Assembly (NCBI RefSeq): GCF_002381345.1
Contig: NZ_CP020663.1
Span: 62,001-126,000, forward strand
Reading direction: 5' to 3'
DNA from: Candidatus Enterovibrio altilux
GTDB lineage: Bacteria; Pseudomonadota; Gammaproteobacteria; Enterobacterales; Vibrionaceae
Length of the DNA: 64,000 nucleotides
Shown: positions 2,191 through 63,549 of the stretch, piece by piece
How positions within the stretch are numbered: position 1 is the stretch's first letter
Layout: every line of letters starts with the position of its first letter
Program-made: the position numbers and the translations under genes
Notes under the pieces: model-generated
The model's database searches: none
The model's input: the letters and a program-made list of their open reading frames with translations, nothing else
What the model was told of the DNA's origin: nothing

Positions 2191-3460
2191 GGCTTTATTT
2201 TTTTAATGCAAGTACAGATAACAAATTTCAACATGATTCACTTTTAGACAATCGCTTTCGTGTTAGGCGTATCTAATCTTATCAGTTTATTTCACACTTT
2301 TATCATACCGTAAGTTTCACTAATTTGAGTTGTGGGATCGCTCAAGCTCAATGTTCCTACCAGTAGTTTTTTAACTAGCATCATTGATGCCTCGGTTAGG
2401 GAACGTTTATGATAATCAGTTTTATTTCCTAAATCAGGGCACTAATTTTTTAATCCACATTCTAAACAGTTAGGATCACTTAAATATTCAAGTTTATGAA
2501 GAATCTTCGTCATAAAACAACAAACTGAAAACAGTGTAATCAAGCTTTAATCAATCGTGGCTCACTAACATTCTGATTGATGAAAAAGCTGTTCAACTAT
2601 GGAATCAAACTAAACAGAGTCATTATGAAATACCTTGGTTTTTAGCGACTTAGTCATTACAATGGCTCTAATGATTAAATACGTATTCTTAATACCATTG
2701 AGGGGTCTGAAAGGATTCACTTATTCTGTTTCCAAATTTGTTCAACTATCATTGTCATGCTCTCACTATGCACGCATTAGCAAGCGAACCAGAATGGTTA
2801 ACGTTATGTTCAAGATGAAGAATAAAGAAAGCATCCAGCACTTAGCCATTGATTTTGCGAGGATCAAAGTCTATAATAAAAGAGCATGAAAAGTAAAAAA
2901 GCATGGCACTGATGGAAAATGACGAGTCTGGCGCAAGTGACATTTAGCGGTAGATATAAATACGCATAAAATGATTGCTGCTACGCGTGAAGTGCATCAA
3001 ATATGACTGACGGTGAAGTGTTACCTAATTTATTCAAATAGACCCGCCAAAAATCAATGTAATATTAGCCGATGGGGCCTACAACACCAAACAATATCAC
3101 GAAACCGTTCGTATTAAGCGAGCAGTTCAACTCATTCAATCAAAAGAGAAATAATTTTTTAAAAATGAGGTCGCCCGCGCAATTTAGCAGTGAGTTACCA
3201 GCAGTTATACGCTTCAAATTAGCACAAAAAAATGAGGTATAGTTGTCATAAATGTTTCCTAGCAGAGACGGCAATGGTTCGAATCAAAAAATTTCTCAGA
3301 GGGACATTGAACCTAAGGAATCACACAATTCAGATTAGCGAAACCTACGCTATGCTAGAGGTATTAAGTAAGCTCACAAGGGTAGAGATGCCGAAAACGG
3401 TTATCTAATAGTCAATTATGTTAGGATTTGTTTTCTGAACTTTAATTAAAAAAACAATGC
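2191..3460 (+). mobile_element. Compound IS5/IS903-like element with long inverted repeats
   Basis: The first ~225 bp are the 3' end of the element in inverted orientation. They are followed by a full-length plus-strand copy starting near 2418 (GTTTTATTTCCTAAATCAGG) and ending near 3460. The two outer ends are therefore the same end of the IS, in inverted orientation. The transposase is broken; an 84-codon open piece survives at 2635-2889 (ends KVYNKRA). No target duplication is visible, since the left flank lies inside the preceding IS relic. Confidence 0.8.
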
Positions 3461-21810: not shown

Positions 21811-22850
21811 GGCTTTGTTTTCTAATTTGAGTTCAAATAGCAAATCTCAACATAATTAAGGATTAAACGATTTCTTTGATTCTAGGCATACCTAGCCCGG
21901 TCAGTTTATTTAACGCTTTTATCATACGTGAGTCTCGATAATCGAAGCATTGTGATCTCAGAAGTTCAATATCTCTCCCAATCATTTGTTGACTCAAACA
22001 TAACCTATCTCTGATAGAGAGCGTTTATGATTACCATACTTCGTTTTCCAATGCTTGTTTGGATCATAGAACTTTTGACAATTGACCGCTACATTACGCG
22101 GATGATCACGTTTTTAAAAAATCGCTGCTTTTCTTTGTTAGCTAAGTGGGACCGCTCGTTTAGTACGAATGGTTTCATAACGTTGTCTGGTGTCGTAAGC
22201 ACCATCGCCTGGTATTGCATTGATTCTGCAACGAGTCTGTTTGAGTAAGTCAGGCAGCGCACACCGTCAGTTACACTTAACTCAGCAGGAATTATCTCAG
22301 GCATATGGATATCTATTGATAAATGTAACTTGCATGAGACTCACCGTTTCCCATCAATGTCATGCTTTTTTACTTTTCATTATCCTTCACCGTAAATTTT
22401 TAGCTCCGTGGAATCAATGGCTAAGTGCAGTATAGTGCTTTTAGTCTTCGTTTTGAGCATGACGTTAACCGTTTTAATTCATTAGCTCGTGCATGCATAA
22501 TTAAGCCATGACAACGGCTATTGAATAAATTTAAACATAGAATTAATGAATCTTTGTAGACTTCTCCATGGCATTGCAAATACGCATTTAACCATGAGGG
22601 CTATCATAATGGCTAAGTCACTGCGCAACAGTAGTTTCCCATGATTACCTAGCTTAGTTTTATTCCAGCGCCGAACAGCTTCTGCATCAATCCAGCATGT
22701 TAGTGAACCACTATCGAGTAAAGCTTGATTATGCTACTTTCAGTTAGTTTTTTTGTAGCAAAATTTATTCGTTGACCTAAATATTTAAGTGAGCCTATCT
22801 ATTTAGAGCGTAGATTGATGATGTAGTTTCTTAATTGAGAAAACTAAACC
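21811..22850 (-). mobile_element. Full-length decayed IS5/IS903-like element left of lux
   Basis: Both ends are recognisable (GGCTTTGTTTTCTAA; right end decayed to GAGAAAACTAAACC). The 1040-bp length equals the consensus element. The transposase has multiple stops and frameshifts. Flanks GTTCTCAAC and GTACTCAAG agree at 7 of 9 bases (if one base is allowed outside the left end), which could be an eroded target duplication. Confidence 0.85.
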
Positions 22851-23271
22851 GTACTCAAGCCTGAATCTTCAAGTTGATTTAGTATATTAAATAAAGTTTG
22901 AAGTATGATTTATGATTTATTGTGCTTTTTGGATCGATGTCAAAATTATGCATATTCTTGTATATAGTGTCTAGTTTTAGATCAGTATTGTGCTATATTC
23001 ATATGCAGATAGAAAACAACTTAAATAGTAGTATTTTAAAATAAGTAAGTAAATCATATGTTATTTTAATGTAAATGATAATAGTATTATTCAAGTAACA
23101 CTTATTTATTTATTTAATGTTAAACTTTAATGTTATATTTAGTATAAATCAATGTAGTGAGGTATATATAATATGTTCATTTTTAATATGTTAACTAACT
23201 AATAATATTAGAATTGATCAATACCTCTTATCATATTCCTTAATTTAACCTGTTAAGATAATGTGGTGTAT
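22851..23271 (+). promoter_or_regulatory. Leader region of the lux operon
   Basis: About 420 bp of very AT-rich, gene-free DNA precedes luxC. I see no 20-bp lux box and no LuxR-type palindrome. A 13-nt palindrome, ATAATAGTATTAT (23078-23090), lies in AAATGATAATAG... context that only partly resembles a Fur site. No sigma70 promoter stands out with good spacing. Confidence 0.4.
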
Positions 23272-24717
23272 ATGGATAAATTAATTCCAATGATCATTAA
23301 TGGTCAGATTGAAAAACAATTTGAAAATACAGAAAAAAATATGAAAATTGATTTCAATAATGGCGCGCTTGTTTACTTACCAAGTATATCTCTATTACAT
23401 ATTAAAAAAATAATAGAATATGAAAATATAAATACTTTAAAATTGCATGACATTATTAATTTTTTATACACAGTTGGGCAGCGATGGAAAAATGAAGAGT
23501 ACTCAAGAAGAAGAACGTACATCCGTGAACTTAAAAAATTTATGGGTTATTCGGAGCAAATGGCAAAGTTAGAAGCAAATTGGATAGCCATGATTCTCAG
23601 CTCTAAAAGTGCTTTATACGATGCTGTTGATAATGAACTTGGATCCAGGCATATTACTGATGAATGGATTCCACAGGATGAATGCTATGTAAGAGCTTTC
23701 CCTAAAGGAAAATCTATGCATTTGTTAGCGGGAAATGTTCCCTTATCAGGTATTAGTTCAATTATACGTGCAATATTAACAAAAAATCAGTGCATAATTA
23801 AAACTTCGGCAGCTGATCCATTTACAGCACATGCTTTAGCTATGAGTTTTATTGATACTGATCCTGAACATCCAATAACACGCTCTTTATCTGTAGTTTA
23901 TTGGTCTCATGACGATGATACAAGTTTACCTGAACAATTAATAAAAGGAATGGATGTTGTTCTTGCTTGGGGAGGATCTGCTGCCATCGAATGGGCTGTA
24001 AAACATTCACCTCCTATAATTGATGTAATTAAGTTTGGTCCTAAAAAAAGCTTAAGTCTTATTGATAATCCGGAAAATATCTCAGCCGCAGCAACAGGTG
24101 TTGCTCATGATATTTGTTTTTACGATCAGCAAGCATGTTTTTCTAGTCAAAATGTTTTTTATATTGGTAATTCCTATCAAGCATTTAAAAGTGAACTAAA
24201 AAATAGTCTTAACTTATATAAAAAAATACTTCCAAAATCAAAACAGAACTTTGATGAACAAGCTGTATATTCTCTTACTGTTAAAGAATGTCAATTTGCA
24301 GGGCTTAATGTAGATATCGATGCTGAACATGAATGGATGATAATTGAATCTGATCCTGGTGTTGAGTTTAATCAACCATTAGGACGATGTGTATATTTAC
24401 ATCATGCTGTAAATTTCGATAAAGTGCTTAAATTTATTGTTAAATATCAAACACAGACAGTATCAATATATCCGTGGGAGTCATCATTCAAATATCGAGA
24501 TTATCTCGCATTGAAAGGCGCAGAACGCATTGTTGAATCTGGCATGAATAATATATTTAGAATAGGTGGTTCACATGACACCATGCGTCCACTTCAACGA
24601 TTAGTTAGATTTATTTCACAGGAAAGACCGTTTGATTTTACTGCTAAAGATGTTGCAGTTAAAATTGAACAAACCCGCTTCCTAGAAGAGGATAAATTCT
24701 TAGTTTTTGTCCCTTAA
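23272..24717 (+). CDS. luxC: Acyl-CoA reductase LuxC
   Basis: LuxC reduces acyl groups handed over by LuxE to the long-chain aldehyde consumed by luciferase. The 481-residue length is normal. The catalytic cysteine lies in [14 protein letters not shown], and [13 protein letters not shown] and [11 protein letters not shown] are typical nucleotide-binding segments. The ATG giving [13 protein letters not shown] resembles the family N-terminus; two GTG codons just upstream could also serve. First gene of luxCDABEG, very AT-rich, frame intact. Confidence 0.97.
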
Positions 24718-29958: not shown

Positions 29959-31145
29959 GGCTCTATGTCCTAAATAAGGAAACTAAGTCACTAATCTGTT
30001 CATAGGAACATTGTAATCCCTTAGAAACAATGTCCTATGAACAGATTTTTGAATCGGAGCATTGCCGTCTCTAATAGGAAACAGTTATGGTAACCATACC
30101 TTATTTACCAATAATTATGAGTTTTATTTTCTAAATCAGGAAACTAAAGCATCAATCTACACTCTAAACAACTAAGTTCACTTAAATATTTAGATTTATG
30201 AGCAAATTTAACTACAAAATAACCAACTAGCAATAGTATAATCAAGCTTTAATCACTCATAGCTCACTAATATTTTGGATTGGTGAAGGAAAACCATTCA
30301 GCTATAGAATCAAAACTAAGCAGAGTGATCATGAGAGACTTTATTTATTTAATGACTTAGCCATTACGCCGGCTTTCATTATTAACCGTATATTTTCAAT
30401 ACCATTAAGAGGTCTGCAAGAATTCATTAATTATAGTTTCAAACTTGCTCGACGGTCTTTACTGTGCCCTCACTATTCAGCATTAGCAAGCAATCCCAAA
30501 CGGTTAACGTCACAGCCAAAGTAAAAATTAAAGAAATCATTCCGTACTTAGTCATTGATTTTACAGGGCTAAAAGTCTACGGTTAAGGCTAATGGAAAGT
30601 AAAAAAGCATAGCACTAATGGGAAACGGCTAGTCTAGCGCAAATTACATTTAGTGATAGATATAAATACGCATGAAATCATTCCGCTAAGTTAAATGCGT
30701 CCAATATAACTAACAGTGAAGTGCTACCTAGCTTACCAAACAGACCCGCTGAAAAATCAATGAAATATCAGCCAATAGTGCTTATTATACCATACGATAT
30801 TACAAAACCGATCGTATTAAACGAGCGTTTCCCACTCACACAACCAAGAAACGAAGCAACTTTTTAGGAATGAGATCATCCACATAATTTAGCGGTGAAT
30901 TACCATACAAGGTATGCTTACGATAAGCGTTCCCTATCAAAACCGGTAATCTTACGAGTCAAACAACTACTTGGAGAGACATTGTTGATCCTAAGCGATT
31001 ACAATGCCCAAATTGGCGAAATCTACACGATGATAAAAGCGTTAAATAAGCTGACTCGGCTAAGTATGTTTAAAATGAAAACGCACATTGAATAGTGAAT
31101 CATTTTGGAGTTTGCTATCTGAACTCGAATTAAAAAACAAAACCC
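29959..31145 (+). mobile_element. Rearranged IS5/IS903-like element right of lux
   Basis: A short plus-strand 5' end (GGCTCTATGTCCTAAAT) leads into an inverted piece of the 3' part, then a full plus-strand copy starts near 30120 (GAGTTTTATTTTCTAAATCAGG) and ends near 31145. The inverted piece runs about 25 bp past the junction seen in the other compound copies, so this is probably a separate event. The transposase is broken; a 66-codon piece of its C-terminal part is open at 30895-31095. Confidence 0.75.
29996..30044 (+). terminator. Long hairpin downstream of luxG
   Basis: CTGTTCATAGGAACATTGT and ACAATGTCCTATGAACAG pair over 18 bp with one bulged A and a 12-nt loop, followed by ATTTTT. It starts 61 bp after the luxG stop and is built from IS sequence. 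It could end lux transcripts, though that role is inferred. Confidence 0.5.
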
Positions 31146-39269: not shown

Positions 39270-40305
39270 GGATCTGTTTTTTAAATAAGCGAGCTAAATC
39301 ATAAATCTACGTGTTAAACAGCTAGATTCACTTAAATGTTTAAATTCATGGACAAATTTCACTATAAAAAACCAACTGGAAGTAATATAATCAATAGTGG
39401 TTCACTAATTTTCGAGGTTGATGCAAAAGCCACTCAGCTATGGAATTAGAATAAGCGAGGTAATCATAGAAGACCTCGTTTATTTGGCGACTGAACCATT
39501 ACGACGACTTTTGTAGTAAAACGCGTATTTTCAATGCCATTGAGAGGGTCTGCAAAGATTCATTAACTCTGTTTTCAAACTTGCTCAACTACCATTGACA
39601 TGCCTTGATAATTCATGCATTAATAAGCTAGCTAAAACGGTTAACATCATGTTCAAAATGAAAGCTAAAGGAATCATTCAACAATTCACCATTGATTCTA
39701 CAAAGATAAAAATTTACGGCCAAAACGAATAGCAAGTTAAAAAGCATAGTACTGACGGTAAATGTTAAGCCTGGCACACGTTAAATTTAGTGGTAGATAT
39801 AAATACGCACGGAATCATTGCGGCTGAATTACGTTAATTAAATGTGACTGATGGTGAAGTACTGTCTAACTGACTCAAAACAGACCCACCGAAGAGTCAA
39901 TGAAATATCCTACGATGGTGCTTACAACACCAGACAATGCTGCAAAATCGTTCGTATTAAACTAACGATTCCACTGATCCCACACAAAAAATAATTTTTT
40001 GAAAACGGATTCACCTGCGTAATTTAGTGGTCAGTTATCAAAAGTTATATGGTTCAAATCAGCATAAAAAAATGAGTATGATTACCATAGATGTTCCCTA
40101 TAAAAGACGGCAATCTTTCGAATCGAAAAGTTCCTTAGAGAAGCATTGAACTTAAAAGATCACAATACTCAGGTTAAAAAAACCTCAACAATAATAAAAG
40201 CATTAAATAGGATGACAGAGCTAAGTATGCTTAAAATAAAAGCAATTGTCTAATAGTGAATCATGTTAGGACTTGCTATATGCACTTTAATTAGGAAGCA
40301 AATTT
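39270..40305 (+). mobile_element. Full-length decayed IS5/IS903-like element
   Basis: The 5' end is GGATCTGTTTTTTAAATAAG and the 3' end is AATTAGGAAGCAAATTT; the length of about 1036 bp equals the consensus. No inverted extension is attached at either end. The transposase has many stops. It separates the rodZ operon from dinB. Confidence 0.82.
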
Positions 40306-41518: not shown

Positions 41519-42378
41519 GGCTTTGTTGTCTAATTCGAGTTTAGATAACATTGAATCGGTCAGCCACATTGAATGAACTTAACTCAGCAGCAATGATGTC
41601 ATGCGTATTTATATCTACCACTAAGTGTAATTTACATTACACTCGCCATTTTCCATCAATGTCATGTTTTTGATCTTTTATTTTTTTTCACCATAGACTT
41701 TAAGCCCCGTAGAATCAATTGCTAAGTGCTGAATAGTTCCTTCATTCTTCGTCTTAAATATGACGTTAACCATTTTGGCTCACTTGCCAATGCATGAATA
41801 GTAAAAGCATAATAACGGCAATGAAGCAAGTTTAAAAAACAGAATTAATGCATTCTTGCAGCCCTCTCAACGGCGTTAAAAACACTCGTTTCACCATGAA
41901 AGCCATCGCAATCGCTAAGTCACTAAATACACGATGTCTCCCACGATTACCCGGCTTAATTTGGTGCCATAGCTACACGTCTTCTTCATCGAGCCAAGAT
42001 GTTAGTGAGCTACTATTCATTAAAGCTTGATGATACTCCTTCCAGTTGGTTGTTTTGTAGTGCAGCTTGTTCATAGGCCTGAATATTTCAGTTAGCCTAG
42101 CTGTTTAAAATGTTAATTGAAAATCTAGTTCCCTGATCTAATAAATAAAGCAGTTACCATAAACGTTCCTTAGCAGAGATAGCAATATTTCAAGCCAACA
42201 AACTGCTGGGAGGGGACATTAAGCCTAAGGGATCATACTGATCAAATGAGCGAAACCTGCGCTATGCTAAAAGCGTTAAATAAACTGACAGGACTAAGCC
42301 TACCTAACACGAAACCAATTATTTAATAATGAATCATATTGAAATTTACTATTGGAACTGAAATTAGAAAATAAAGCC
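41519..42378 (-). mobile_element. Compound IS5/IS903-like element with internal deletion
   Basis: The minus-strand copy starts with GGCTTTGTTGTCTAATTCG, loses several hundred bases of its 3' half, then runs to its 5' end near 42150. There AATAAAGCA is joined directly to GTTACCATAAACGTTCC, the start of a plus-strand 3' fragment ending at 42378. Same junction as the compound copies at 2.2, 50.2 and 58.5 kb. Confidence 0.8.
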
Positions 42379-50158: not shown

Positions 50159-51436
50159 GGCCTTGTTTCCCAATTTAAATGTAAATAGTAAATCCCAGCA
50201 TGGTTGACGATTAAACAATCGCTTTTATTTTAGCCATACCTCACCCAATCAGCTTATTTAACACTTTTATAATGCTGTAGGTTTCCCTAATCTGAGCATT
50301 ATGAACTCTTAAGCTCAATATTTCTCTGAATAGTTTTTAACTTGAAGCATTGCAATCTCTGATAGAAAACATTCATGGTCATCATACTTCGTTTCCCAAT
50401 GCTGATTGGATGCTTATAACTTTTCGTATAACTTTGGCAACTGACCGCTAAATTGCATGAATGATTTCGTTCCCCCAAAGTTATTCTTTTTCTTGATTGG
50501 ATGATTGGAACTACTCGCTTAATACGAACGGTTTCGTCGCCTTATTTAACGTCGTAAGCACCATTAACTAATATTGCATTAATTTTTCGCTGGGTCTGTT
50601 TGAGCCAGTTAAGTAGCACTTCACCGTTAGTAATATTTAATGCACTTAACTCAGTAGCAATTATTTTATGTGTATTAATAGCTATCGCTAAACGTAACTT
50701 ATGTTAAGCTCACCGTTTCTCATCAATGCTCTACTTTTTACTTTCCATTCGCCTTTGCCGTAGACTTTAAGCTTCGTATAATCCATGGCTAAGAGTTGGA
50801 TGGTTTTTTATTCTTCACCTTGAACGTAAGGTTAACTATTTTAGCTCGCTTGCTAATGCATCAATAGTGAAGGCATAACAACGGCTAGTGAGCAAATTTG
50901 AAAACAAAATCCATGAATCCTTGTAAATCTTTGTAATGCAATTAAAAATACGCATTTAACCATGAGGAGTATTATAATGGCTAAGTCGCTAAACACACGA
51001 AGTCTCCCATGATTACGCGGCTTAGTTTCATTCCATATCTCGATGTCTTATTCATCAATCCAGAATATTAGTGAGCCACGATTGATTAAAGCTTTATTAT
51101 ACTGCTTCCTATTAGTTGTTTTGTAGTAAAACTTGTTTATAGACTTAAATATTTAAGTTATTTTAGAATGTTCATTAAAAATTTAGTTCCATAATTTAAA
51201 AAATGAACTTAATTAGTTATAAACGCTCCATAGCAGAAACAACAATAGTGCGAATCAAAAAACTACCGAAAAAGACATTAGATCTAAGGGATGATACAGT
51301 TCAAATGAGTGAAACTTACGCCATGATACAAGCGTTAAATAAGCTTATATAACTGAATATGCCTAATATAACAGTGATTATTCAATAATGAATCATGTCG
51401 GGATCTGCTACATGAACTTAAATTAGGCACAGAACT
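50159..51436 (-). mobile_element. Compound IS5/IS903-like element with 9-bp target duplication
   Basis: A full minus-strand copy (from GGCCTTGTTTCCCAATTT) ends near 51200 and is joined through TTAGTTATAAACGCTCC to about 232 bp of plus-strand 3' end. The 1278-bp unit is flanked by CACCATAAT (50150-50158) and CATCATAAT (51437-51445), an 8/9 match, as expected for the 9-bp duplications of the IS903 group. It lies between the aapM and aapP relics. The transposase is broken. Confidence 0.82.
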
Positions 51437-55092: not shown

Positions 55093-55937
55093 GACTATAT
55101 TTCCTAAATCATGGGATAAAATCATAAAATTACGCTCTAAACAACTAGGTTCACTTAAATATTTAAATCTATGGAGAAGCTTCGTTACCAAAAACTAACT
55201 GAAAGCAGTGTAAGTGTAATTAATAGTTAATCATGGTAAACTCAACCATTAGTTAGATTTAATGCACTTAACTTAAAAGTAATAACTAAGTGCTATATGC
55301 TTCCTTTATTCTTCCTTTTGAACGTGACGTTAATCATTTTGACTCGCTTGCTAATGCATGAATAGTGAAGATATGACGCTAGCAATTGGGCAAGTTTAAA
55401 AACAGAGTTAATGAATCCTTGCAGACCTCTCAATGGCATTGAAAATACGCACTTAACCATGAGAGCCGTCGTAATAGCTAAGTGGCTAAATAAATGAAAT
55501 TTTCCATGATTACCCTGCTTAATTTGATTCCATAGCTAAATAGCTTCTTCATCAATTCATAATGTTCGTAAGGACAATTTATTAAAGCTTGATTATACTG
55601 CTATCAGTTAGTTATGTTGTCGCAAAAATTATTCATAACCTGAGTATTTAAGTGAGCCTAACTGTTTAGAGTATTGATTGAAAATTTAGTTCCCTTATTG
55701 AAAAAATAAAGCTGATTATTATAAATGTTCCATAGCAGAGACAGCAATGGGTCGAGCCAAAAACTACGGTAGGGGCATGGAGTCTAAGAAATCACATAAC
55801 TCAGATCAGTGAAACCGACGCCATGATGCAAACGTTACATAAGCTGACAAAACTAGGCATCCCTAACACGAAAGCGATTACCTATATAGTGAATCATGTG
55901 AGGATTGGCCTCTCAACTCGAATTAGGGAACAAAGCA
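55093..55937 (-). mobile_element. Rearranged IS5/IS903-like element, 5' end inverted
   Basis: A plus-strand 5' end of about 150 bp (CTATATTTCCTAAATCATGGG) switches to the minus-strand copy, which has lost its 3' half. The minus copy ends near 55712 and is joined to a plus-strand 3' fragment at TGATTATTATAAATGTTCC, ending AATTAGGGAACAAAGCA. Confidence 0.75.
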
Positions 55938-58546: not shown

Positions 58547-59824
58547 GACTTTATTTCCTAATTTAAGCTCAAATAGAAAATTTCAACAGGATTAACGATT
58601 AAATAACCGCTTTTATTTTAGGCATACCTAGTCAAATCAGTTTACTTAATGCTTTTATCATAGCTTAAGTTTCGCTAATCTGAGCATTATAATCTCTGAA
58701 GTTCAATGTTCCTCCTAAGTAATTTTTTGACTCAAAATATTGCCATCTCTGATAAAAAATATTTATGGTAACCATACCTCGTTTTTCAATGCTAATTTGA
58801 ACCATATAATTTCTGGTAACTGATCGCTAAATTACGCGGCTATTCTAGTTTTTAAAAAAGTTGCTCTTTTTCTTTAGGAGATGAATGAAACCGTTCGTTT
58901 AATACTAACGGTCTTGTAGTGTTGTCTGGCGTCATAAGCATCATTGGCTGGTCTTTCATTAATTTTTCAGCGGGCCTGTTTGAGCAAGTTAAGTAAAACT
59001 TCACCATTAGCCACATTTGATACACTTCACTCAGCAGCTATGATTTCGTGCGTATTTATATCTACCGCTAAATGTAACTGCGTCAGACTCACCGCTTTTC
59101 ATCAATACCATGCTTTTTTACTTTTCATTCTCCTTCACCGTAGACTTTGAGCGCCGTAAGATCAATGATTAAATACTGGATGCTTCTTTTATTCTTCATC
59201 TTGAACGTGACGTTAACCGTTTTGACCTGCTTGCTAATGCATGAAGAGTGAGGGTAAGACAATGGCAGTTGAATAAATTTGAAAACAGAATTAATTAATC
59301 CTTACAGACTTCTCAATGACATTAAAAATACGCATTTAGCCATGAGGACCGTCGTAATAGCTAAGTAGCTAAATAAATGAGGTCTTCCATGATTACCATG
59401 CTTAATTTGATTCCATAGCTGAATCACTTTTTCATCAATCTAGAATGTTAGTGAGCCACTATTGCTTAAAACTTAATTATACTGCTTCCAATTAATTGTT
59501 TTTTTAGAGAATATTATTCACAGACTTGAATATATAAGTGAGCCTAACTATTTAAAGTATTTATTGAAAATTTAGTTCCGTGACTTAGGAAATGAAGCCG
59601 ATTACCATCAACGTTCCCTTGCAAAAACACCAATGGTTCTAGTTAAAAAACTACAGGGAGGGACATTGAGCCTAAGGTATCACACAATTCAGATTAATAA
59701 ACCTACGGCATGACAAAAGCGTTACATAAGCTGAAAAGACTAGGTATGCCTAATACGAAAGCAATTATTTAATAGTAAATCATGTTGGGTTTTACTATCT
59801 GAGTTTTCATTAGGAAATACAGCC
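58547..59824 (-). mobile_element. Compound IS5/IS903-like element, complete architecture
   Basis: A full-length minus-strand copy (GACTTTATTTCCTAATTT to AGGAAATGAAGCC, near 59598) is joined to a plus-strand 3' fragment starting GATTACCATCAACGTTCCC and ending TTAGGAAATACAGCC. The total of 1278 bp equals the copy at 50.2 kb. No matching 9-bp flanks are seen (CCTATTGTA versus AGGTAGCAT). The transposase is broken. Confidence 0.82.
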
Positions 59825-61415: not shown

Positions 61416-62070
61416 TTGCTTTGTTTCCTAATGCGGACTTAGATAGCAAATTTCAACATGGTGCACTATTAGACCATCGCTTTTGTTTTAGGCATACCTA
61501 GCCCGGTCAGCTTATTTAATGCTTTTATCGTGACGTAAGTTTCGGTCAATCTAAATGTTGTGATCTCTTAAGCCCCATGTCTATTCCATAAATTTTTTAG
61601 TTCGCACCATTGCCGTCTCTAATAGAGAGAGTTTATGCTAGCCAGCTTTATTTCCTAAATAAAGGCATTAAATCTTCAATCAATATTTTAAACAGTTAGG
61701 CTCACTAATATTCTGGATTGATGAAGAAGCTGTTTAGCTGTGGCATCAAACTAAGCAGAGTAATCATGAGAGACTTCGTTTATTTAGCAACTTAGCCATT
61801 ACGACGGCACTCATGGTTAAATGCGTATTTTCAATGTCGTTATCATGCCATCACTATTCATGCATTAGCAAGCGAGCCAGAACGGTTAACGTCACGTTCA
61901 AGACGAAATAATTGAAGCATGCAGCATTGAACCATTGATTTTACGAGGCTCAAAGTCTACGATGAGGGAGAATGGAAAGTAAAAAAACATGGTACTAATG
62001 GTACTAATAGAAACGATGAGTCTGACGTAAGTTGCATTTAACGGTAGATATAAATACGCCTAACATAAAA
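61416..62070 (+). mobile_element. Truncated compound IS5/IS903-like element
   Basis: An inverted 3' fragment (from TTGCTTTGTTTCCTAATGCGG) joins at TTTATGCTAGCCAGCTTTATTTCC a plus-strand copy with an internal deletion. The copy breaks off in the transposase middle (GGTAGATATAAATACG) about 20 bp before the tRNA-like gene. Same junction as the other compound copies. Confidence 0.75.
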
Positions 62071-62394: not shown

Positions 62395-63549
62395 AGTGGT
62401 ACTAATCTGAGTTATGTGATCCCTTAGGTTCAATGTCCCTACCAGTAGTTTTTTTGACTCTAACCATTGCTGTCTCTGCTAGGGACGTTTATGGTAACCG
62501 GTTTTATTTTTTACATAAGGGAACTACATTTTCAATCCACACTCTACACAATTAGGCTAACTTAAATATTCAGGTCTATGAACAATTTTCACTATAAAAC
62601 CACTAACTGGAAGCGGTGTAATCAAACTTTAATGAATCGTGGCTCACTAACATTCTAGGTTAATGAAAAAAGTTATTTAGCTATGGAATCAAACTAAGCA
62701 GGGTAATCATGGAAAACCTTATATATTTAGCAACTTAACCACTACGACGGCCCTCATGGTTAAATGCGTATTTTCAATGACATTGAGAAGTCTGCAAGCA
62801 TGATTAATTCTGTTTGCAAACTGATTCAACTGCCTTTGTCGTGCCTTCACTATTCATACATTAGCAAGTGATCCAAAACGGTTAATGTCACGTTTAAAAC
62901 GAAGAATAAAGAGGCATATAGCACTTATCCATTAGTTTTACGGAGCTAAAAGTTTACGATGAAGGAGAATGGAAAGCAAAAAAGTATGGTATTAATGGGA
63001 AATAGTAAGTCTAGCACAAGTTGCAGTTAGCGGTAAATATAAATACGTATGAAATCAGTGTTGCTGAGTTAAGCGCCTCAAATGTGACTGACGATGCAGT
63101 GCTGCCTAGTTTGCTCAAACAGCCCCGCTGAGAAATTAATGCAATATCAACGAATGGTGCTTACGACACCAAACAATGTTACGAACTTGTTCGGATGAAA
63201 TAAGCAGTTCCAATTATACCACCAAAAAAAGGAACAATTTTTTAGGAACGCGGTCATCCGTGTAATTTAGCGGTCAGTTACTAGAAGTTATACGGTTCCA
63301 ATCAATATTGGGAAACGAAGTATGCTTATACTAAACGTTCCCTATCAAAAACGGCAATGTTTCAAATCAAAAAATTACTGGGAGGGATATGGAGCTTAAT
63401 AGCTTATAATGCTCAAATTAGCAAAACTTACACCATGATAAAAGCGTTAAATAAGCTGGCAGAGCTAAGTGCATCTAAAACAAAAGCGATTGTTTAATCT
63501 TTAATCATGTTAAAATTTGTTATTTGAACTAGAATGAGAAAATAAAACC
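62395..63549 (+). mobile_element. Compound IS5/IS903-like element, left arm shortened
   Basis: About 100 bp of inverted 3' sequence (ACTAATCTGAGTTATGTGATCCC onward) meets a full-length plus-strand copy at TTTATGGTAACCGGTTTTATTTTTTACAT. The copy ends GAATGAGAAAATAAAACC. The transposase is broken by many stops. Confidence 0.78.

Follow-up and report, generated by a model that had tools for sequence, protein, structure and literature searches.

The window and its insertion sequence family

The window, a stretch of 64,000 nucleotides from the Candidatus Enterovibrio altilux genome (C2:62001-126000; 2,143,356 bp in 4 contigs, C1 having 1,604,691 bp), contains 23 matches to the profile of one decayed IS5/IS903-like element, many pairs of which are ~70-75% identical to each other. 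In the census sample, consisting of the window and 40 further stretches (864 kb, ~40% of the genome), this family profile fills 28.5% of the DNA. The window also carries a luxC gene at 23263-24717 (PF05893, E 3.1e-121), and the run of open reading frames from luxC to about 29935 may be a lux operon, luxC being the one gene of the run that was tested. The copies of the element discussed here are collected in Table 1.

Elements of the IS903 subgroup are close to 1,050 bp long, with a single left end and a single right end, inverted terminal repeats that begin GGCTTTG, and a 9-bp target duplication. The consensus transposase of the window family, translated with its one in-frame stop entered as X, scores 359.5 bits against the IS5 family model NF033579 (cut-off 140, E 1.4e-107), with PF13737 and PF01609 also above cut-off, and IS903-type terminal starts were seen in the consensus and in individual copies (element tips GGCTTTGTTTCC). 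Both the IS5/IS903 DDE transposase and the GGCTTTG tips are therefore present in the family consensus. The standard form of the element, ~1,050 bp long, also has one left and one right end; the 1,278-bp compound form, as a derivative, departs from this plan.

Every protein match listed from the window's own genome (143 counted) contains internal stops. A live relative (L086) was found by a search for element tips; it measures 1,051 bp and has a perfect 9-bp target duplication. An inverted-repeat scan of the relatives' loci detected no element ends, but the tip search did find ends. When 41 genomes (the own genome and 40 relatives) were searched at the DNA level, with at most 10 candidates scored per genome, matches were found in 5 including the own genome, and those outside it were only partial. 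One relative of the same genus with a reduced genome of 2.6 Mb (G012) holds 134 relatives of the transposase without the compound joint, the best being ~50% identical among the matches listed.

According to the accessible part of a published account, 672 IS5-family transposase genes were counted in 'Ca. Enterovibrio luxaltus' CC26, the symbiont of the anglerfish C. couesii, where all transposase genes are pseudogenes and transposable elements make up 28% of the coding sequences (PMC6020299). That part of the account gives the CC26 transposase genes as either truncated or without inverted repeats, and contains no description of a compound IS form (PMC6020299).

Table 1. Copies of the IS903-like element in the window, followed by mirror-image units of the sample. 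Positions are those of the window unless another stretch is named.
Feature	Position	Strand	Profile match	Details
Full compound	2192..3460	+	5-1271 of 1274	Arm ~2192-2417; joint between 2417 and 2418; left-tip word at 2418; ends extrapolated to tips
Standard copy without arm	21811..22850	-	225-1274	Tips read
Armed unit, other joint, standard-type body	29990..31144	+	127-1273	Right end extrapolated
Standard copy without arm	39270..40305	+	226-1272	Tips read
Compound, body cut at model 836	41541..42378	-	2-836	Arm complete, ~42152-42378; joint word at 42154 with 1 mismatch
Full compound, 1,278 bp	50159..51436	-	5-1273	Arm ~51211-51436; joint decayed near 51210; main-type body
Compound cut at model 667	55274..55937	-	2-667	Arm ~55713-55937; body 55274-55712
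Full compound, 1,278 bp	58547..59824	-		Body 58547-59599; arm 59600-59824; joint between 59599 and 59600; C2:120547-121824 in the genome
Compound with 288>367 deletion, cut at model 783	61417..62067	+	2-292 and 367-783	Joint between 61643 and 61644; left-tip word at 61644; deletion visible at 61699-61710
Compound, arm cut to ~100 bp, main joint kept	62400..63549	+	126-1273	Right end extrapolated
LL units, among others	L041:15879, L042:14818, L043:18354, L045:14091, L069:19603, L036:4779, L077:6324			Right tip adjoins inverted left part of another copy

Anatomy and census of the compound form

In the compound form, an inverted 225-bp piece of the element's own right end stands in front of a full element, so that both outer ends of the 1,278-bp unit are right ends and the left end is internal. 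Its consensus, built from 18 copies, has 1,274 columns, with 3 tip bases falling outside; columns 1-225 are the inverted right end (the arm), the GGCTTT tip stands at 226, and a near-complete IS903-like transposase frame follows and runs to the right tip. No DNA was found between arm and body in either the consensus or the reading of the joints, the two abutting directly. The first-pass annotation had described this structure at seven loci of the window, and all seven hold an arm and the joint region, the unit given as 55.1 kb lying nearer 55.27 kb. By their coordinates, two of the units have exactly the 1,278 bp that had been claimed for them (Table 1). An eighth armed unit, at 29990, was absent from that list; its joint carries 24 extra bases past the main one.

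In the sample, 231 profile matches reach the left tip: 94 include 20 bp or more of an arm, 135 begin near the tip, and 2 belong to neither group. After chaining across internal deletions, and with other joints included, the 864 kb contain 81 compound and 116 standard left ends, and among full copies 57 are compound and 56 standard. The majority base of the body separates the two forms at 27 columns, with the strongest contrast at 257, 264 and 267, where the triplet T, A, A is found in 87, 80 and 87% of compounds vs 14, 11 and 23% of standards. By this triplet the 94 armed copies comprise 77 with a main-type body, 15 with a standard-type body and 2 unclear, and among 125 standard copies 108 are of standard type and 14 of main type, with 3 unclear. 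Those 14 had been chosen for a start within 216-236, and in 9 of them the start falls at 225-227, as would be expected if the inner left end were used or the arm had been lost.

Throughout the family in the sample, internal deletions recur at fixed places, and direct repeats of 8-11 bp in the consensus bound most of them. The commonest are 281/367 (13 copies), 458/650 (9), 503/557 (8), 973/1040 (8) and 932/1020 (6), and the classes 726>814 and 338>409 share words of just 5-6 bases. Some deletions occur on both compound and standard backgrounds and therefore look like repeated short-repeat deletions.

The joint between arm and body

The consensus main joint is GGTAACC followed directly by GGCTTT. 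A 24-base joint pattern was found at 100 places genome-wide at up to 3 mismatches, vs 0 for the reversed control, and gave 0 matches in 12 relatives at the same threshold; the exact pattern gave 0 matches in genome-contig and viral-contig collections, from which the window's own genome may be missing. The word TTACCATAAACGTTCCC, which the first-pass annotation had given for the joint, has 10 window matches at up to 3 mismatches vs 0.11 expected; since most of these fall in ordinary right ends, the word alone is no joint marker. The joint had also been placed inside a palindrome, and ATGGTTACCAT is a near-palindrome only, its length being odd.

Joints were re-read on the raw sequence because profile alignment hides insertions. 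Model positions 214-236 are free of indels in 64 of the sample's 77 main-type armed copies; in the other 13 there is one indel, of 1 bp in 12 cases and of 5 bp in one. The earlier statement that the joint is always the same thus holds for the main lineage, within which joints differing by many bases, expected if the rearrangements were independent, were not found; it fails for a minority of armed copies. In the unit at 50159 the arm is present, but the decayed joint misses the 17-base word at up to 3 mismatches. Among the 15 armed copies with a standard-type body, only 2 have the main joint (L069:14735-15987 and L076:14429-15443); these may be recombinants or of separate origin, and they count against a one-lineage reading. 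The other standard-type armed copies include ~5 arms of about 202-205 bp, one of ~190 bp, two that overrun the main joint, and five that are short and doubtful. From these other joints it follows that armed forms arose more than once and that one of them was amplified.

Shared history of arms and bodies

Arms differ from ordinary right ends by majority at 14 of 225 columns, of which 2 pass a stricter cut. Position 139 is T at a frequency of 0.61 in arms vs 0.00-0.06 in three right-end groups, and position 204 is C at 0.71 vs 0.05-0.14. At these two columns, 45 of the 56 scored arms are arm-type and 4 right-end-type, and only 4 of 157 scored right ends are arm-type. The arms thus share variants that are rare in ordinary right ends, in agreement with the expectation that arms of one mobile derivative should group together rather than with unrelated copies. 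On a tree of 48 compound and 51 standard bodies, the compound label needs 21 changes vs 33.4 +- 2.7 when shuffled (minimum 25 in 500 shuffles). Compound labels therefore cluster, yet the compounds do not form one clade on this star-like tree.

Distances between arms and between bodies correlate with a raw r of 0.38 over 62 copies, which falls to 0.058 (p 0.008) once copy-wide decay is removed, and no correlation was found within the main type (53 copies) or within 31 full copies. The proposed check for a common history of arm and body accordingly has a divided outcome: the two share a deep split into two types, and below it lies a star without further signal. Gene conversion between an arm and the right end of the same copy was unsupported (identity 0.696 vs 0.692, p 0.10, 31 copies).

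Divergence from the own consensus is lower in 58 main-type compounds (0.148) than in 80 standard-type standards (0.187; Mann-Whitney p 2e-10), and transversions alone give the same order (0.041 vs 0.055), as do both halves of the body. The compound is read as the later form because of this lower divergence. C>T and G>A changes amount to ~0.22 per site and the remaining changes to 0.01-0.05. Overall, the 1,278-bp compound looks like one derivative that spread late in the burst of the insertion sequence and is now a decayed fossil.

Neighbouring copies and mirror-image units

Among the 235 left tips, 133 are free of IS neighbours, 3 have a neighbour on the same strand and 99 have an inverted one; 81-82 of the inverted neighbours are at the main position, a class that is defined by position and takes in a few units with other joints, and 18 of the 99 are elsewhere. 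Of 290 right tips, 240 have no neighbour, 39 an inverted and 11 a same-strand one. In a nest left in place, the right tip of the inner copy would abut the outer copy's left half, whose end would lie near model position 1059. The right end is present in 55 of the 82 units at the main position, and an IS neighbour within 15 bp of the right tip was found in 9 of these 55, in every case at another position. In all 55 of these units the expected place therefore lacks the second half of the interrupted copy, and a nested insertion still in place was rejected. A genome-wide search for the partner joint gave 0 matches at low sensitivity, a comparable search having found 1 place where the sample held 4. 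Among the remaining full copies, just 2 are flanked by IS pieces left and right, in a pattern that does not match a single nest.

The mirror image of the two-right-end (RR) arrangement also occurs, as LL units (Table 1). Further RR and LL joints are each found in 2-5 copies of the sample. The joints RR 617 and LL 625, and likewise RR 458 and LL 466, share an overlap of exactly 9 bp, which is also the length of the target duplication in the live relative; two such pairs would arise by chance with a probability of ~0.02, given 11 RR and 20 LL positions. These pairs are suggestive only, because the positions were read by hand after the list had been seen and because an 11-bp direct repeat contains the 458 site. 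The rarer RR and LL units suggest that the route was taken repeatedly.

Target duplications and flanks

No 9-bp target duplication was detected round the compounds (identity 0.304, null 0.291, z 0.68, 57 copies), and at most a weak excess round the standards (0.341, null 0.303, z 1.83, 55 copies). Over lengths of 2-14 bp, z peaked at 1.70 for compounds (at 8 bp) and at 2.72 for standards (at 2 bp); in a smaller sample, p was 0.83 over 19 compounds and 0.0045 over 17 standards. Under the decay seen here, surviving 9-bp duplications would be expected to show an identity near 0.7, so that duplications would be kept in at most about a tenth of the compounds and about a fifth of the standards. Recombination between IS copies and adjacent deletions are named as causes of duplication loss in the accessible part of PMC11708052. 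The missing duplications separate compound from standard copies little, if at all.

The compounds are dispersed, and nearly all of their flanks are unrelated: 103 IS-masked 300-bp flanks of full compounds gave 3 non-self matches, one of them of 270 bp at 70%. In an empty-site test with the translated flanks of 6 compounds, no pair resembling one gene was found by eye.

Origin and spread of the compound

Insertion of one copy into an inverted copy, followed by spread as a 1,278-bp unit, is the best explanation of these results, and we hold it with fairly high confidence. An IS903-like element would have multiplied to hundreds of copies, one of which would have inserted, inverted, into another at GGTTACCAT near the 3' end of the transposase gene; taken by itself, nested insertion is a somewhat favoured first step. 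The inner full element together with the 225-bp right part of the outer copy would then present two outward right ends, and transposase acting on these may have moved the 1,278-bp unit as one. This unit would have retained the whole transposase frame and an internal left end, which may have stayed in use, as the 14 standard copies with a compound-type body suggest. Late in the burst the compound would have become a source lineage and reached at least 100 places, its copies afterwards decaying by C-to-T-rich mutation. The first-pass annotation had proposed the same origin, and its account is the best supported by the shared variants, the one main joint and the 0 of 55 left-over halves; because target duplications are missing, the nesting and the movement by two right ends stay at the level of inference. 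Against this explanation stand the absence of duplications round compounds and of any arm-body history beyond two types, and the other joints in a minority of armed copies.

That the near-palindrome of the element is a preferred target, and that independent insertions formed the same joint many times, is improbable. Abutting inverted copies are indeed common off the main position (the 18 left tips and 39 right tips given above), and several arm lengths exist, with ~205 bp in about five copies and 190, ~250 and 260 bp in single ones; however, main-class arms have variants in common, as do the bodies, none of the 55 units has the remaining part of the outer copy where such insertions would leave it, and the other joints reach just ~5 copies in the sample. 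It is likewise improbable that the compound did not transpose and that its copies were spread by recombination or segmental duplication. The lack of target duplications would agree with such a spread, but the standards, which must have transposed, lack them almost as much, the masked flanks give next to no matches, and many copies keep both outer tips.

The first step may instead have been an adjacent deletion, made by transposase where two copies lie inverted next to each other, or a switch of template in the near-palindrome. This less likely alternative overlaps with the insertion account, since it keeps all later steps of the spread. The two other full copies flanked on both sides by IS pieces misfit one nest, which is in its favour, and adjacent deletion has been described for IS903 in the accessible part of PMC11708052. 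A template switch does not predict a joint exactly at the tip of the element, as strand transfer and adjacent deletion do, and the 9-bp overlap of the two RR/LL pairs is what split nests would give, which is suggestive evidence against both alternatives to nesting.

Relation to known systems and significance

The compound shares its transposase family and tips with IS5/IS903 elements, among them the live relative of 1,051 bp with its 9-bp duplication, and differs from them in its length of 1,278 bp, in a third, inverted right end and in having right ends on both outsides. In composite transposons of the Tn903 type, two inverted copies of one IS bracket other DNA. There too two IS copies cooperate and the outer ends move the whole, whereas the compound keeps just 225 bp of the second copy and has no passenger gene; with its arm abutting the body and no DNA between them, it is not a composite transposon. 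A MITE is short and without a transposase gene, and the compound, whose consensus holds a near-complete transposase frame, is not one either.

In an Arabidopsis study, as far as its accessible part goes, an atypical Ds with an adjacent 598-bp inverted repeat was reported to show correlated movement (PMC1978519). As in the compound, an inverted repeat there arises beside a transposon; Ds is a plant element, whereas here a bacterial DDE element has its own end inverted and is present at no fewer than 100 places. TIMEs and mosaic non-autonomous bacterial elements, as described in the accessible part of PMC4133298, likewise build new and more complex mobile units from element ends; TIMEs are derived from Tn3 and lack a transposase gene, whereas a near-complete one is retained in the compound consensus. 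In listings of largely open literature, no bacterial IS with a comparable structure was found.

Many copies in this genome keep both ends (57 compound and 56 standard in the sample), contrary to the accessible part of the account of CC26 (PMC6020299). Together, the copies form a fossil series in which an IS forms new end combinations (RR and LL) from its own copies, one of which was amplified. Whether an IS, by inserting into itself, evolved 225-bp terminal inverted repeats and two right ends, partly replaced its ancestor in one genome and took the same route repeatedly (RR, LL) is evenly balanced in our judgement; if so, this single fossil genome would document how long inverted ends can grow on an IS. 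Such a series allows a test of whether transposition is raised by two right ends, and it points to a way in which long terminal inverted repeats can form in bacteria.
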